A DNA stretch of 27,540 nt from a virus, in IMG/VR virus record IMGVR_UViG_3300046474_000040, positions 1 through 27,540 of that record. One strand, given 5' to 3'. How positions within the stretch are numbered: position 1 is the first letter of the stretch; each line of letters starts with the position of its first letter. The notes beneath the pieces were generated by a model, which saw nothing but the letters and a program-made list of their open reading frames with translations, ran no database searches and was not told where the DNA came from. The position numbers and the translations under genes are program-made. Positions 3,691 to 18,100 of the stretch are shown piece by piece.

Positions 3691-5274
3691 ATGGCCGTAG
3701 CGAACGCTGCTCAAGCGCCAGTAAAATCGGCTGGCGACCCTAACACCGTTTATGAGACGCTTAAGCCTCTGTGGGAGAAGAGCCGTGCTGCTTGCAGTGG
3801 GGAGCGTTTCGTAAAGGACTTTGATGAGAACATCGACAACATTGGCTTCACAAACCTCCTGATCCCCTTCTCCCCATCCATGACTCAGGAGCAGTACAAC
3901 TTCTACAAGGCTGAGGCTGAGTGGCCTGGCATCACTGCGCAGTTCTCTAAGATGCTGGTTGGAGGCCTTCTCCGAAAGCCTCCTCGACTGACATTCAAGA
4001 AAGATGTCCCTGAAGAAGCCAAGAACTGGATCCTCAACGAGTTCGGTAAGGACGGCTGCTCGCTGGTGGCCTTCCTTGACGAAGGTCTCAGTGAAGAGAT
4101 TAAGACTAGCAGGCCGTGGGTCTTCGTGGACTACCCGAAGATCGACAATCCTGATGATCTTGATGAAGAAGAGCTCAAGAAGTACACGCCTTATCCGGTA
4201 CTCCAGCCTGGGGAATCTGTCGTTAACTGGCGGGTGACCACTGATGAGTATGGAAAGTGCCGTCTCGACCGTGTCATCGTTCGAGGACTGAAAGAGTCCT
4301 ACGTTGAGAACGAATTCCACCCCACGTTCATTGACGTCGCGTATGTCCATGAACTGGTCAATGGTAAGTACCAGGTAAGAGTCTTTGAGAAGACTACTCC
4401 TGAGAGCAATGTGCCGGTCAATACTGGCCAGGTACAGCAGGACGTTAAGAGCACCACGGACACGATCTTCGTCCTTAAGCAGACGAATAGCGTGCTAGTG
4501 AATGGTGACTCTCTTGACTTCATTCCCGCCTGGCCTCTGAATGGCTGCATCAGCCCTAGAGAGCCTATCCTACTGCCGATCATCGACAAAGAGGTGGCTC
4601 TCTACAATAAGGTGAGTCGTCGCAATCACCTTCTGTATGGTGCCTCCACATATACGCCCGTCATCTTCTCTGACATGACTGACGAGGAGTTCGACGAGGT
4701 CGTTGGCGGAGGCCTCGGCACTTGGCTGCATCTCAACAAGGACGATGCTGCCGAGGTCCTGGAGACTCCTACTGCTGCTCTGCAGGACATGGAGAAAGCT
4801 ATTGCTGCAGCCATTGAGGAGATGGCTAAGCTAGGCATCAGGATGCTCACCCCAGAGGTCGAGCAGTCTGGTGTGGCTCTGGAGATCCGCAATGCCGCCC
4901 AGACGGCACAGCTCAGTACACTTAACACGAAGGTTAGCGAGACCATGCGGCAGGTGATCGTCTTCATGATCAACTGGCGTTACGAGCTCAAGCTGACTAT
5001 CGATGATGTGGAGTTCTCCCTGTCTGATGACTTCAATCCTGCGCCTCTCGGTGCTGATTGGCTTCGTCTGGCGACTGAGTGGTACCAAGCAGGGCTTGTC
5101 CCGAGGGCTGTGTGGATCACACTTCTCAAGCTGAATGATCTTCTGCCGCCTGATTATGACGACGATGAGGGTAAGAAGGAGATCAGTGCTGACGAAATCA
5201 TCCAGAATGCCCTCAGGGGCTCTGATGACTATGCTACGCAGATAGCGAACGGAAGGACTAAGAAAAAGGAGTAG
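3691..5274 (+). CDS. Portal protein (DUF4055-like)
   Basis: The 527-residue product has the length and position of a siphovirus portal, the dodecameric ring at the head vertex through which DNA enters and leaves. The N-terminal part resembles DUF4055-type portals: YNFYKAEAEWPGITAQFSKMLVGGLLRKPPRLTF (about residues 69-102), then RPWVFVDYP and GESVVNWRVTTDEYG. A long helical stretch near residues 345-425 (AALQDMEKAIAAAIEEMAKLG, then EIRNAAQTAQLSTLNTKVSETMRQV) fits the portal stem and wing helices. The C-terminus is acidic then basic (DYDDDEGKKEISADE...GRTKKKE). The MuF gene begins six bases after the stop, the usual portal-MuF order. The terminase that often precedes a portal is not in the window. 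Confidence 0.85.
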   Translation: MAVANAAQAPVKSAGDPNTVYETLKPLWEKSRAACSGERFVKDFDENIDNIGFTNLLIPFSPSMTQEQYNFYKAEAEWPGITAQFSKMLVGGLLRKPPRLTFKKDVPEEAKNWILNEFGKDGCSLVAFLDEGLSEEIKTSRPWVFVDYPKIDNPDDLDEEELKKYTPYPVLQPGESVVNWRVTTDEYGKCRLDRVIVRGLKESYVENEFHPTFIDVAYVHELVNGKYQVRVFEKTTPESNVPVNTGQVQQDVKSTTDTIFVLKQTNSVLVNGDSLDFIPAWPLNGCISPREPILLPIIDKEVALYNKVSRRNHLLYGASTYTPVIFSDMTDEEFDEVVGGGLGTWLHLNKDDAAEVLETPTAALQDMEKAIAAAIEEMAKLGIRMLTPEVEQSGVALEIRNAAQTAQLSTLNTKVSETMRQVIVFMINWRYELKLTIDDVEFSLSDDFNPAPLGADWLRLATEWYQAGLVPRAVWITLLKLNDLLPPDYDDDEGKKEISADEIIQNALRGSDDYATQIANGRTKKKE

Positions 5275-9909: not shown

Positions 9910-9982
9910 CACGAACCCGTTAAATTAACCCAGGCGCGCGTTCTGGTGATTGTATTGCGAGAGCGCCGCCTAACCTTATTTC

Positions 9983-9997
9983 AGAGATTGTATCTCT
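9983..9997. promoter_or_regulatory. 3-nt-loop hairpin A, candidate phage-polymerase recognition site
   Basis: AGAGAT (9983-9988), loop TGT, ATCTCT (9992-9997) form a perfect 6-bp stem. It follows TAACCTTATTT. No T-tract follows, so it is not a typical terminator. N4 virion RNA polymerase promoters are DNA hairpins with a short stem and a 3-nt loop, so the form matches. The orientation is unclear: the central loop base is a purine (G) only on the + strand, and N4 needs a purine at the loop centre on the template strand. Confidence 0.4.
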
Positions 9998-10005
9998 AAC
10001 CTCAT

Positions 10006-10022
10006 TTTGAGTTGTACTCAAA
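10006..10022. promoter_or_regulatory. 3-nt-loop hairpin B, overlaps scaffold ribosome binding site
   Basis: TTTGAGT (10006-10012), loop TGT, ACTCAAA (10016-10022) form a perfect 7-bp stem. Its centre is 24 bp from that of hairpin A. The stem sequence differs from hairpin A but pairing and loop are kept. Its right arm overlaps the Shine-Dalgarno AAAGGA (10020-10025) of the scaffold gene, so in mRNA it could also limit ribosome access. Promoter, RNA-processing and translational roles all remain possible. Confidence 0.4.
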
Positions 10023-10031
10023 GGATCTATC

Positions 10032-10733
10032 ATGGCTACTGATAATGGTAAGAACGACGGGGAAGAGGGCAAGACTCCCGACCCCAAGGACAAGACGCAG
10101 AACACCGACGATGACAACGGAAAACAAGAGCCCACGCTTGAAGAGCGGCTTGAGGCTCTGGTGGAAGCTCGGCTGAAGCCTATTAAGGATAAGCTGGACG
10201 GTGCCTACTCACAACGTGACTCCGAGAAAGCCAGAGCTGACGCTCTTGAGAAGGAGAAGCGTGAGGCAGAACTCAAGCGTCTTGAGGACGAGGGTAAACA
10301 CAAGGAAGCTGCTGAACTCAAGGTTGCTGAAGCACAGCGCCAAGCCGACGAAGAGCGGAGGCGACGCGAAGCTGCCGAAGAAGAGAACACCAAGCTGACA
10401 CGTGACCTCGACGTCAAGAACGCCCTGAGTGGCCACAACTTCCGTAATGATAAGGCAGCTGGAACCGCCCATCGGGAAATTGTGGACGAACTGGTTAAGA
10501 ATAGCCAGGGCGTCTGGGTGCATAAGTCTGGTGCGAGCATTAAAGACTGTGTGGAGGCATTCGTCAAGGATGATGCCAACAGCTATCTCTTTAAAGCTAG
10601 AGCGTCCTCTGGTTCCGGTTCTGACACTGCAGTGCCTAGCAAAGACACCTCCAAGGGTGGCTCGCTCTTTGCGATGTCCCAAGCGGAAGTACTAGAAATG
10701 GCCGCGAAGGGGAAACTCCCCAAGCGCAAGTAA
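10032..10733 (+). CDS. Capsid scaffolding protein
   Basis: ATG 10032 follows AAGGA at six-base spacing. The 233-residue product lies directly before the major capsid gene and has scaffold composition. An acidic disordered start (GKNDGEEGKTPDPKDKTQN) is followed by a long charged coiled coil (about residues 35-135, many K/E/A heptads such as RLEDEGKHKEAAELKVAEAQRQADEERR). A compact segment around HREIVDELVKNSQGVWVHK follows, then a short basic C-terminal helix (MSQAEVLEMAAKGKLPKRK). Such basic C-terminal helices bind the coat protein in known scaffolds. Scaffolding proteins guide procapsid assembly and then leave or are degraded. No protease domain is visible here. Confidence 0.85.
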   Translation: MATDNGKNDGEEGKTPDPKDKTQNTDDDNGKQEPTLEERLEALVEARLKPIKDKLDGAYSQRDSEKARADALEKEKREAELKRLEDEGKHKEAAELKVAEAQRQADEERRRREAAEEENTKLTRDLDVKNALSGHNFRNDKAAGTAHREIVDELVKNSQGVWVHKSGASIKDCVEAFVKDDANSYLFKARASSGSGSDTAVPSKDTSKGGSLFAMSQAEVLEMAAKGKLPKRK

Positions 10734-10749: not shown

Positions 10750-11931
10750 ATGACTGCCAGAACTAACGTTCCGGGCGCTACTAACGAAGTGCTCCAGTCT
10801 GCGCTCTCCGCCTACTCGGATGAAGCGTATACTAACGCAAAGAAGCTGTCGGGCACGGGCATTGTTGGCTCGAACCCCGACATCGACCCTTCCACTGAAA
10901 CCTTTATCGGTCAGGTCCGTTGGCACAAGCCGATGAACCCGGTGATCAACGTCGCGTCTCTGACTGACTCGACTGCCGGTGCCAAGACCAACTACTCGTC
11001 CGACTACCTGCGTTACGTCAAATCGGTCCGTACCCACGGCGCTGAGAAGGTGAACATGCAGAAAGTCGTCACTCAGGTCGACGGTCTGGCTAAGCTGGGT
11101 CGTGACTTCGGCGAGACTCGTGCTCAGGACGAGCACAACGCCCTCCTGGCCATCCTGAAGGGCGTCGCGATCGCGGAAGCTCTGAACGGCGCTGCTACTG
11201 GTTCTGGCTCGACCGGTCTCGGTGGCCAGACCTTTGCCAACGACCCGAGCGACAAGAAGTACGGCTTCTATGTCGATCTGGGTGCCGCCAAGAACGTCGT
11301 CGATGCGACCGCCACTGTCCAAGGTGCGGCCCGTGCCGAAGGCTTCCTGCGCGCCTTCGGTATGGCTTACAAGGACTACGAGCCCGAATATGCCTACCTC
11401 GTCACCTCGCCGGAGACGATGGCTTCGCTGCGTTCGGCCAACCTCGTTGACCAGACCAAAGTCACTGACGGTGCGATCGAATTCTCGACCATCTTCGAAG
11501 GTAAGTTCCGCCTGATCTCGTCGCGTGCTGTGACCTCGCTCACTGGCGCTGAACTGACCATGCTGAACACTGGTGCTGGTGTTGACATCGTCGGCACGAA
11601 GACCTCGTTCATCGTTCTGCCGGGCGCTATCGCCTTCCATCCGCTGGATGTGCCGGACGAGACTGAGATCACCCGTGACGGCAACGCCTATAAGGGCGGC
11701 GGCCTGACCTCGGTCTGGCACCGTTGGGGTTACGTCATGGCCCCGGCTGGCTACGACTGGATCGGCTCGGAGGACGACTTTGCCTCCGACACGACCTACC
11801 AGAGCATTGTCGAAAGCTCGACTGTCAAAGCCCTGACTGCGGTCACGACAATCGCCAATGCCAAGGGTACCTGGAACCGCAAGGCCAGCTCGGCCCTGAG
11901 CCTGGGCATCCTGCCGATCTTCCACTCGTAA
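10750..11931 (+). CDS. Major capsid protein (HK97-fold expected)
   Basis: ATG 10750 follows AAGGA (10739-10743) at six-base spacing. The 393-residue length, position after the scaffold gene and before a connector gene, and strong codon bias identify the major coat protein. Serine is mostly TCG and arginine almost only CGT/CGC, unlike the neighbours. Internal features fit an HK97-type coat: an N-terminal helical arm (NEVLQSALSAYSDEAYTNAKK), a long loop region (VRWHKPMNPVINVASLTDSTAG), a spine helix (QDEHNALLAILKGVAIAEAL, about 132-151), and a C-terminal beta region with GLTSVWHRWGYVMAPAGYDWIGSEDDFASD (about 318-347). There is no obvious N-terminal delta domain, consistent with a separate scaffold. 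The fold is inferred, not shown by a direct motif. Confidence 0.88.
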   Translation: MTARTNVPGATNEVLQSALSAYSDEAYTNAKKLSGTGIVGSNPDIDPSTETFIGQVRWHKPMNPVINVASLTDSTAGAKTNYSSDYLRYVKSVRTHGAEKVNMQKVVTQVDGLAKLGRDFGETRAQDEHNALLAILKGVAIAEALNGAATGSGSTGLGGQTFANDPSDKKYGFYVDLGAAKNVVDATATVQGAARAEGFLRAFGMAYKDYEPEYAYLVTSPETMASLRSANLVDQTKVTDGAIEFSTIFEGKFRLISSRAVTSLTGAELTMLNTGAGVDIVGTKTSFIVLPGAIAFHPLDVPDETEITRDGNAYKGGGLTSVWHRWGYVMAPAGYDWIGSEDDFASDTTYQSIVESSTVKALTAVTTIANAKGTWNRKASSALSLGILPIFHS

Positions 11932-15123: not shown

Positions 15124-18100
15124 ATGTCAGGCGTTATTATTGACGTTGAAACTAACTCGGAAGCTGCCAAACGTGACCTTCAGAGTCTCAACCAGAGACT
15201 GAAGGATATGTTCCTGGGTGCGAATCGCACTAAGGGCGCGCTGGGCTCTATCGATGGTAGCAACTTCAAGTCTATCAATAAGAATATCAAGGACACCACG
15301 GACTCCTTCAGGAACTTCCAGGTGTCTGGTGGATCGGCCATGTCGTCGATCTCTAAGAACACTCATAGCGTTGTCAAGGACATCGGACTTCTGAAGTCGG
15401 CCGTAGGAGCCACCGGCGTGGCCCTTGCTGCGTTCGGGTCGATCAAGACCTTCAACAGGATGGCTGATGATCTGACCAACGTTCAGAACCGTCTGCGTCT
15501 CGTGACCAACGATACGGACGCTCTGCTCCGCAAGCAGCGCCAGCTGTTCCTGATGTCACAGCAGACCAGGACCTCCTTCGGAGCTACTGCCAATATCTTT
15601 GTGGACTTCGTCAAGGGCCTCAAGCAATCGGGCATCGAGGAAGAGCGCGTCGTCAAGGTCGTGAAGACCATCCAGCAAGCTGGCGCACTGTCGGGCAGCT
15701 CAATGGAGACCCTGAATGCCTCTCTGGTGCAGCTGTCTCAGGGCATCGGTGCTGGGGTGCTTCGTGGTGAAGAGCTCAACTCCGTCCTGGAGGGTATGAA
15801 GTACTACGGCCAAGGACTGGCCGAGGCGCTAGGTATGACCACTGGTCAGCTGCGCCAATTCGCGATGGACGGTGGTCTGACTACGAAGACGCTCATCCAA
15901 GCCACCGAGAAGATGGCTAAGAAGACCGCCACTGACTTCCAGAAGACCACTGTCACAATGGGAGCCGCTACTGCAAACTTCCACGCGTCCGTCTCCTACT
16001 TCGTAGCTGATATCAACCAGTTCCTTGGTGTGTCCGACTTCTTCGCGAAGGGACTTAACAAGCGCGCTAATTTGCTGGCTGGAGCGAGTGACAACATCAT
16101 CACGCAGCTTACTCTCATTCGACGGGCTGCAAAGAACTACATCGATGAGATCGTTAGAGGCAACACCTTCGTAGCCACTCTGAAGGGCGTCATCAAGCTC
16201 AACATCAATCCTCTGGATGCGGTGTCGAAGTACCAGCAGCAAAAGAAAGTTAAGGAATACCTCAGAAAGGTCCATGACTTCTTCGCTAAGGAGACTGATG
16301 TTGATGTAAACGTAAAGCCCACGGGCCTGGAGAAATTGTTCAGTCGGTTCAAGATTCCCAAGGCTGACAACGAAGATGCGTCCCGCCGACTGACTGATGT
16401 GAAGACCATGCGCCAGCGTGTGGAAGAGGTGATCAATCTCTCTACTGCGATGTATGACACACTGTCGGTCACCGCTCGTAACACCCTGCACCTGTTCCCG
16501 CAGATCCAGCTTCCGATGACCCGTTATGCGGATTCCCTGAAGCGTTTTGTGTCATTTGCAGGTGTCAATATCGACTCTTGGGTGGCTAACACCATCCGAC
16601 CTGCCTCTCGTGCTGTGGAGGGGCTTCAGGAGACCCTGTCAATCTTCTCATCGGGCGATAAGCGCCTTGAGAGGGCATGGGTGTCTCTGTTCAAGTCGTC
16701 TAACATTGTCGAGTTCACCGAGAACCTCTTCAAGCTCAATAGAGCTAGAGAGTCACTCAAGCTCGATGACAAGGCCTTCTTGGGCCATGCATTTCTTGAG
16801 CGACTGGGACAAGCCTCTAAGGGTATCGACAACGTCCTGATCAAGCTTGGTTTCATGAAGAATCGCTTCAGGATCAAGGTGCCTGTGGAGGACATCAAGA
16901 AGCAGGTTGAGGCGACCGGCTCTGTGATCCAGAGAGTCTGGGAGGATGTGTTCGCGCCTAAACTCGACCCGATTCTCCGTAAGACCGCCATTCAGATCAA
17001 GACCTTTGGTGCCACTCTTAGCAACACACTTGCAGCATCTTTCACCCTGTCGAATGGCAGAGACCTCGGAGAGTCTTTCGGTAGGCTCATCGGTCTTGGT
17101 GTTCGGAAGGTCGTCAGTGGGTTTAAGTTCCTTGAGGGTGCTTCGTTCGGTGATCTACTGAACACGAGTGCGATCAAGAAGTTCGTGTCCGCTGTTGAAG
17201 GACCTCTGGAGCACCTCAAGAACTTCTTCAAAGGCTTCTTCAAGGGCATCCTGGGTGGCTTCGGTGCAGAGGCTAATAAAGGGAACTTTCTAACCAAGAC
17301 GTTCGATCAGATCAGTGAAGAGGCCGACTCTAAGCTGAAGCACGTTGAGCGTCGTATTCGTGACTTCGGAAAGTCTGTCAAGGGTGTCTTCTATGACATC
17401 TGGGACGCAGTGGTGGGTCACTCTTTCTGGCCTGACACCATCGACGGCGTGGTCAGCTACACCCACAGAATCTTTGAATCGAATAAGACTCTAAAGAAGT
17501 TCAAGGATAATGTCCTTGACATGTTCAAGAGCGTCTATGAGAGGATGAAGTCCAGCGAGTTCTTCGGCGACTTCGCCCGAAAGCTCGGCAAGATCGACTG
17601 GTCTGCTGCTCTGAAGACACTCACGGGCTCCGTCGGTAGTGCGTTAGTCGCTGGCATGTTGCTGTTCTTCGGCAACCTTCAGATGAAGCTCACGGCGCTC
17701 AGCTACTTCATCTCTCTGTTCAACGTGGCGATCGGCGGTGCCGTCAGCACCATCACCCCACACATCGCGACCCTCATGGGCACTGTGGGCGGACAGTTTG
17801 CCGAGCGTCTGCTTGAGGGTGCGGTAAGAAGCCTTGACGCACTGATTGGCGCTATACCCTCCTTTGTCCACTCGTTCCTGAATGCATTACTGCCCGCGCA
17901 GGGCATTGTGGATGCCATCTTTGCTCTATCACCTGTCGCCAGCAACCATCTACTGTGGGCCATCGGTGCCATCGCTCTTCTCTCCACCAAGGTCAAGGCC
18001 CTGAAGCCTATCAATGAGATGATCTTTGGTAAGAAGAAACTGGGTAAGGACGGCATCAAGGTTATCTCTGAAGGCATACTTCCAGTATTCCAGCAGATGA

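Follow-up and report, generated by a model that had tools for sequence, protein, structure and literature searches.

A putative RNA operator of paired NGU-triloop hairpins in the scaffold/capsid mRNA leader of a large group of tailed phages

Comparative analysis indicates that two short hairpins lying side by side in front of the head scaffolding gene of a tailed phage very probably form an RNA element in the mRNA of the scaffold/capsid operon and are not promoters of the neighbouring polymerase. Across many phages the stems drift in sequence but preserve their pairing, their loop and their spacing from the scaffold start. Our main reading, to which we assign a probability of roughly 0.6, is that of a cis-acting RNA element in the scaffold/capsid mRNA leader, with putative protein-recognised loops that would control ribosome entry. 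Since the hairpins are kept as folded RNA in the messenger of many phages, they probably help to set the amounts of scaffold and capsid protein.

The window, i.e., the whole stretch of DNA analysed, comprises positions 1 to 27,540 of the IMG/VR virus record IMGVR_UViG_3300046474_000040, and the gene content of these 27,540 bases indicates a tailed phage. The genes are arranged in the order portal, MuF-polymerase, a gap of 122 nt, scaffold, major capsid, and then connector and tail genes (Table 1). The MuF-polymerase gene is the upstream neighbour of the hairpins and lies outside the element, and hairpin 2 adjoins the scaffold gene's Shine-Dalgarno sequence, AAAGGA, with which it overlaps in part. 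The twin hairpins reported by the first-pass annotation are confirmed, both being perfect, with TGT loops and centres (9990 and 10014) 24 bp apart. That annotation also proposed a scan of the whole genome for further 3-nt-loop hairpins; among the 34 perfect ones with at least 5 bp found in the window, TGT occurs as the loop only in hairpins 1 and 2. The accompanying repeat flank TAACCT[TC]ATTT is present in exactly two copies (9971 and 9997), with no third exact copy in the window, but it is not conserved in the alignment of relatives, and with up to two mismatches allowed its frequency does not exceed chance (8 matches vs 6.2 expected), so that the flank looks incidental. A third hairpin of this type, which the first-pass annotation had missed in the window, is optional and was found in 6 of the 75 usable sites, the window's own included. 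The fold energy of the leader is mildly better than that of shuffles in the window (z -1.7), and the stretch from -13 to -5 has a mean unpaired probability of 0.49, i.e., it is about half paired.

Table 1 Features of the window and of related records, with the evidence for each
Feature	Position	Strand	Evidence
Portal gene	3691-5274		
MuF/SPP1-gp7-type minor head protein fused to T7-family single-subunit RNA polymerase, 1542 aa	5281-9909	+	phrog_241, phrog_414, PF04233, PF00940, TIGR01641, fold
CGTTAAATTAACCC palindromic element, candidate promoter of the stand-alone polymerase	9918-9931	+	
Optional third hairpin, longer, imperfect stem, same U-[UGU]-A tip	9938-9966	+	RNA fold
Hairpin 1, AGAGAU-UGU-AUCUCU, 6 bp stem, UGU loop closed by U-A, loop centre 9990	9983-9997	+	
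Hairpin 2, UUUGAGU-UGU-ACUCAAA, 7 bp stem, loop centre 10014	10006-10022	+	
Shine-Dalgarno AAAGGA of the scaffold gene	10020-10025	+	sequence; inferred from position
Head scaffolding protein gene, 233 aa, presumed controlled gene	10032-10733	+	phrog_206, E 6.6e-05
Major capsid protein gene, next after scaffold	10750-11931	+	phrog_247, E 3.2e-17
TATCTTATATGATA-like string in related records	G001:69035, G002:63342, G003:54264, G009:35632, G013:46031, G014:62376; reverse-complemented G012 529, 76103		

Covariation indicates a conserved structure. The alignment used contains 65 sites selected for a YYGTR core and at least 4 pairs, with 3 Watson-Crick pairs next to the loop; because of this selection the inner pairs lean towards pairing, and the outer pairs are unselected. 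Changes on both sides are seen in all 12 stem pairs, seven aligned pairs in hairpin 1 and five in hairpin 2, and the claim that structure is kept rather than sequence, originally made from the window, thus holds across phages. Paired cells amount to 96.0%; shuffles give 71.5%, and shifting the partner by 1-3 columns gives 27-58%. Cells with a double change number 231 vs 70 in shuffles. A capsid-protein tree, which covers 59 of the 65 sites, requires at least 128 replacements of one Watson-Crick pair by another (Fitch minimum), and RNAalifold recovers the same 12 pairs. By selection, all 65 sites share the G and U of the loop, and the first loop base changes at least 7 and at least 11 times on the tree. 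Conservation in related phages, on which the first-pass annotation had let its proposal depend, is thus strong, with 65 relatives aligned. The aligned stems also contain wobbles, 34 of them G.T and 8 of them A.C (p 7e-5 for a departure from equal chance, kinship ignored); since a G.T on the + strand is G.U in the mRNA and would be A.C on the - strand, this bias suggests that the structured strand is most likely the mRNA strand.

The constraint on the loop was assessed in a census of relatives. Viral contigs were scanned with the MuF-polymerase and with the capsid protein (80 loci each, overlapping), and 86 unique pre-scaffold sites were extracted from the two scans. YGT-loop hairpins with at least 4 pairs within 260 nt number two in 57 sites, three in 16, one in 8 and none in 5, where some of the sites with three include chance hairpins far upstream. 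The 170 hairpins thus collected have the loop TGT in 141 cases and CGT in 29, and the closing pair is T-A in 109 and C-G in 56. A second census allowed any 3-nt loop in 75 sites, i.e., the 86 minus 11 in which the start was wrongly assigned or the contig incomplete. In the hairpin-2 slot, the longest 3-nt-loop hairpin has TGT or CGT in 74 of the 75, and the remaining site, L067, also carries one there. The hairpin-1 slot holds TGT or CGT in 67 sites, GGT, AGT and AAT in one each, and none in 5; inspected by eye, these five have near-forms in which, e.g., the loop is UGUU (L046) or the position next to the loop has a mismatch, a bulge or a wobble. One site, L083, has AGT loops in both hairpins. 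In general, the loop is NGU, mostly UGU and then CGU, with a closing pair that is nearly always U-A or C-G. The loop types of the two hairpins are linked within a phage (48 TGT/TGT, 6 CGT/CGT and 11 mixed among 65; Fisher p 0.002, kinship ignored), as expected if one protein reads both. Single Y-YGT-R hairpins with at least 5 pairs also occur elsewhere in the genomes, at chance level.

The element is tied to one gene. With a covariance model, each of 15 near relatives yields a single good site (E 2.3e-4 or better). This site lies just upstream of the scaffold gene or, where the scaffold start is unlocated, in the interval from the polymerase gene to the capsid gene; an additional, weak match (E 0.3) is present in G015. 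The two strands of nine long related records (64-78 kb) hold 627 mechanical ORFs with a length of 100 aa or more. A search for a Y-YGT-R hairpin of at least 4 bp at 10-24 nt upstream of these picked out eight, all of them scaffold genes, and the ninth record is the one with AGT loops. Across 70 loci, in which it was sought at 10-24 nt, the hairpin-2 loop lies 10-22 nt from the scaffold start codon (s.d. 2.3), and without this limit the same range holds for 69 of 73 sites; measured from the polymerase stop, hairpin 2 lies at 22-929 nt in the 70 loci (s.d. 159). In nine loci with gaps of 311-951 nt the hairpins stay beside the scaffold gene, and 9 of the 70 loci have a gap of only 39-64 nt in all, which leaves little room beyond both hairpins. 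A protein-free pattern for hairpin 2 and its Shine-Dalgarno sequence, TGAGYYGTRCTCAAAGG, was also scanned in viral contigs, and at least 119 stretches matched. A scaffold ORF follows directly in 69 of 80 loci among the matches listed, where the AAAGG contained in the pattern favours gene starts of any kind; of the other loci, one contig ends after the motif and 10, which have no scaffold, look like chance. Inspection by eye of the scaffold leaders of Seurat, Siara, PaMx25, SETP7, Bacillus 279BB001 and pVco-14 revealed no Y-YGT-R hairpin, and the element therefore does not seem to be general for scaffold genes.

More distant relatives carry recognisable forms of the arrangement. The roseophage DSS3_VP1 (L189, Naomviridae), the MuF-polymerase of which is 31% identical, has GUAAGU-UGU-ACUUAC before the scaffold Shine-Dalgarno sequence together with a G.U-rich hairpin 1, with a weak covariance-model score (E 0.5). 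According to the available text of PMC12697855, DSS3_VP1 has deoxyuridine DNA. Two DSS3-like contigs, L274 and L281, show an AGU loop in hairpin 2, and EBPR siphovirus 1 has GUGU-UGU-ACAC before the Shine-Dalgarno sequence of gp51. In the Pelagibacter phages Aegir and Kolga and their relatives, GGCCGUGUCC precedes the scaffold Shine-Dalgarno sequence in 25 of 27 unique sites, the start being wrongly assigned in the remaining 2; with wobble allowed, no more than 14 of the 27 form as many as 4 pairs, and the covariance-model scores are weak (E 0.1-0.7). The scaffold site is the sole model match in Aegir, Kolga and G018 and the second of two weak matches in G016; in G017 it is unmatched, and the one weak match lies elsewhere. 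These observations are suggestive of a related but weaker form of the element in Pelagibacter phages. The MuF protein of Aegir (633 aa) has no polymerase match, and Kolga and Aegir carry a stand-alone polymerase. A short phage-polymerase promoter, ATATAAC..GG, considered for the Pelagibacter phages was dropped, the combined pattern occurring once in Kolga and giving no support. A search for a host link, in which bacterial genome contigs were scanned for close relatives of the MuF-polymerase, gave 9 pattern matches, none of them confirmed.

That a nearby gene encodes a polymerase was correctly recognised from the window; its product is a fusion of a MuF head protein with a single-subunit RNA polymerase. 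An AlphaFold2 model of the polymerase domain (mean pLDDT 74.9) matches T7 and mitochondrial polymerases best (Z about 24, rmsd 5-9 A, about 600 residues), and N4 vRNAP scores lower (Z about 12-15; mini-vRNAP Z 14.7, rmsd 4.4, 525 residues). In a phmmer search the best chain is the archaeal regulator 1uly (E 2.8e-05, 25 bits), taken as unrelated, followed by mitochondrial polymerases at E 0.1; N4 vRNAP is not listed at E up to 1. The strings DASSSGAQ, RKAAKAQNMVTFYG and HDAF, which we take to resemble polymerase motifs, are present in the consensus of the MuF-polymerase alignment and suggest that the fusion is probably an active virion polymerase. The gene is interrupted in some relatives: group I introns are found in the MuF-polymerase gene region of G014 (L185:15298-15536 and 17152-17415), and an HNH endonuclease gene splits it in EBPR siphovirus 1 (JF412302.1 gp47-gp49). 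A second, stand-alone T7-type polymerase was identified in 9 of 9 near relatives tested and in DSS3_VP1, where it matches T7 RNAP with E 1.8e-58; it was not found in EBPR siphovirus 1 (a partial record) or in the Pelagibacter contig G018.

The presence of the fused polymerase had led the first-pass annotation to consider the hairpins as its cognate DNA hairpin promoters, as in N4. The neighbouring polymerase has the expected fold, with N4 mini-vRNAP among its matches, and the DNA of both strands can fold into the hairpins. The N4 promoter template, as given in the available text of PMC4496689, needs A or G at -11, G at -10, G at -8, C at +1 and a 3-base loop. With the + strand as template the central loop base is a purine, which would mean leftward transcription; as had been pointed out, this is the only orientation in which the central-purine rule holds, -11 being C on the - template. 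Position -8, which we mapped to the second stem pair, is G on either strand in hairpin 2 of 64 and in hairpin 1 of 28 of the 65 sites. The -10 G, however, fails on both strands, being a pyrimidine with the + template and A with the - template. A C at +1, present in the window's hairpin 2 with the + strand as template, occurs in that orientation in 9 of 60 hairpins 1 and 6 of 76 hairpins 2, and with the - template in 3 of 60 and 15 of 76, respectively. As the hairpins do not follow these base rules as a set, they are not classed as N4-type promoters. Such promoters would further be expected in several copies in the early region, whereas there is one good site per record, among the structural genes before the scaffold; the hairpins track the scaffold start and not the polymerase gene, a related sequence is kept in Pelagibacter phages that lack the fused polymerase, the wobble bias favours one strand, and the polymerase fold, closer to T7 than to N4, also speaks against the proposal. 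We regard it as largely refuted and reject it as very improbable.

Among the readings that leave the hairpins in the mRNA, the second choice is a boundary of mRNA processing or stability, a ligand-free structural role in which the hairpins would mark or protect the 5' end of an abundant scaffold/capsid message against a little-needed MuF-polymerase message. MuF-type proteins are low in copy number in virions, and the position of the hairpins between a minor-protein gene and the scaffold gene, in a gap that in 9 of 70 loci holds little else, agrees with this. Plain end protection, however, does not account for the constraint on the loop, for the way the closing pair is oriented or for the tight distance to the Shine-Dalgarno sequence, and we consider the boundary unlikely. 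Twin hairpins also resemble the put sites of HK022, and two adjacent hairpins heading a long structural operon, with one good site per record, could be a put- or nut-like antitermination signal, the nascent hairpins loading a factor or modifying the polymerase for the late operon. Such a signal does not require a fixed distance to one start codon, and the nine near relatives tested have their own stand-alone T7-type polymerase; antitermination thus appears distinctly improbable. Finally, the mRNA would carry a queuosine-type base if the hairpins were substrates of a host tRNA-guanine transglycosylase, an enzyme that, according to the available text of PMC10103133, needs a UGU hairpin loop and acts best on loops of 7 nt. 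UGU is the commonest loop (141 of 170), both loops of the window are UGU, and the enzyme family is present in 14 of 14 control genomes. The needed U, however, is absent from the CGU loops (29 of 170) and from the AGU loops of L083, L274 and L281, the loops here have 3 nt and not the optimal 7, and the enzyme gene was absent from all 18 phage records searched. With this loop variation, and the enzyme gene not found in the phages, the transglycosylase reading was rejected as the least probable of all.

An RNA element controlling scaffold/capsid expression, which the first-pass annotation had named as the other possibility, is supported by covariation, wobble bias, position and gene specificity. 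In such a translational operator, the + strand RNA would fold into two short stem-loops with an NGU triloop and a pyrimidine-purine closing pair, a protein would recognise the paired, sequence-constrained loops beside the Shine-Dalgarno site, and the bound protein would control ribosome entry on the scaffold message and, by coupling, on the capsid message. The constrained loop, the oriented closing pair, the tandem arrangement, the linked loop types and the fixed place at the Shine-Dalgarno sequence are consistent with a paired site for recognition by a protein. The most plausible binder is a product of the phage itself, with self-repression by the scaffold or capsid protein as the leading guess. 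Seven scaffold proteins computed for charge are acidic overall, the last 40 residues being weakly basic in six, and an alignment of 34 scaffolds has no clear basic domain; the alignments speak neither for nor against feedback of the scaffold on its own translation. A more specific version, which we put forward tentatively, is that the NGU-triloop pair is read cooperatively by the scaffold or capsid protein so that assembly feeds back on scaffold translation, from the window's group to the marine Naomviridae and in reduced form in pelagiphages.

The gap in front of the scaffold gene contains a further conserved feature, a palindromic CGTTRANTTAACCC element that is found in 13 of 15 related records (G001-G009 and G012-G015; none in G010 and G011) in 1-8 copies, on one strand per record. 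Its consensus, from 40 copies, is A.CCCGTTAAATTAACCC, and the strict pattern GTTRANTTAACC lies within 260 nt upstream in 46 of the 86 sites, several others having one-base variants and others none. In the contexts inspected by eye the element lies between genes. In 7 of 9 records, the end of the match to the stand-alone polymerase is followed 0.6-1.2 kb downstream by one copy. We regard it as a candidate promoter of the stand-alone T7-type polymerase; if the window's copy were the start of the scaffold message, the hairpins would fall in the 5' leader. In a subset of copies (G003:62719, G009:48395, G002:381 and, reverse-complemented, G012:529), a stretch rich in pyrimidines (e.g., AGGACGTTCTCCCT in G003) and one rich in A and T come after the element, and this is possibly an origin or end region. 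Downstream of one palindrome copy a string near TATCTTATATGATA is conserved, which in 6 of 7 records precedes a gene with a product starting like MELKQVFTTPDGK.

A compact covarying element that keeps a fixed place at the scaffold start throughout a large group of phages is a directly testable site, and it offers a possible new RNA-protein recognition pair as well as a marker for finding scaffold genes. To our knowledge, no widespread RNA operator of scaffold synthesis is known in tailed phages. Rfam 15 has no match in the window (best sub-threshold match 15.4 bits vs a gathering threshold of 40), and in 80 kb from four relatives it returns only two group I introns. The element is undescribed in the open-licence literature searched, including the available text of PMC5512222, PMC4496689, PMC10103133, PMC3748129, PMC2864571 and PMC12697855; most subscription papers lie outside this search, and the negative result is therefore weak evidence of novelty. 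A cis-acting RNA operator is a known kind of element, and the recognition pair is possibly new.

Several known systems can be compared with the element. Outside phages, the tip of hepatitis B virus epsilon is closed by C-G, and iron-response elements have NGU-triloop tips too. The available text of PMC3748129 describes epsilon as having a pseudo-triloop with UGU. An NGU loop closed by C-G is thus shared with the phage hairpins, in which U-A is also used, and for the Pelagibacter sequence a drawing is possible in which an extra U follows the closing pair on its 3' side; the likeness is one of the tip only and does not imply common origin. The pan RNA motif, as far as the available text of PMC2864571 describes it, differs in structure, genes and hosts. 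With the N4 vRNAP promoters the element shares a small 3-nt-loop hairpin in a phage with a probable virion polymerase, and it differs from them in two of the four base rules, in copy number and in gene location. In P22, scaffold synthesis is self-regulated after transcription, as known from genetics, and post-transcriptional control of this kind would need such a leader element; we compare the two by description only and do not know of a P22 operator in the form of a hairpin pair. The coat operator of MS2/Qbeta and the leaders of T4 gp32 and gp43 are translational operators of phage RNA-binding proteins. In these, as here, a short hairpin whose loop is constrained lies next to or over the ribosome-binding site, and the gene concerned is a structural or replication gene; unlike them, the element occurs in a dsDNA phage with siphovirus-type tail genes and consists of two tandem hairpins with an NGU triloop, which would be read by a putative binder.
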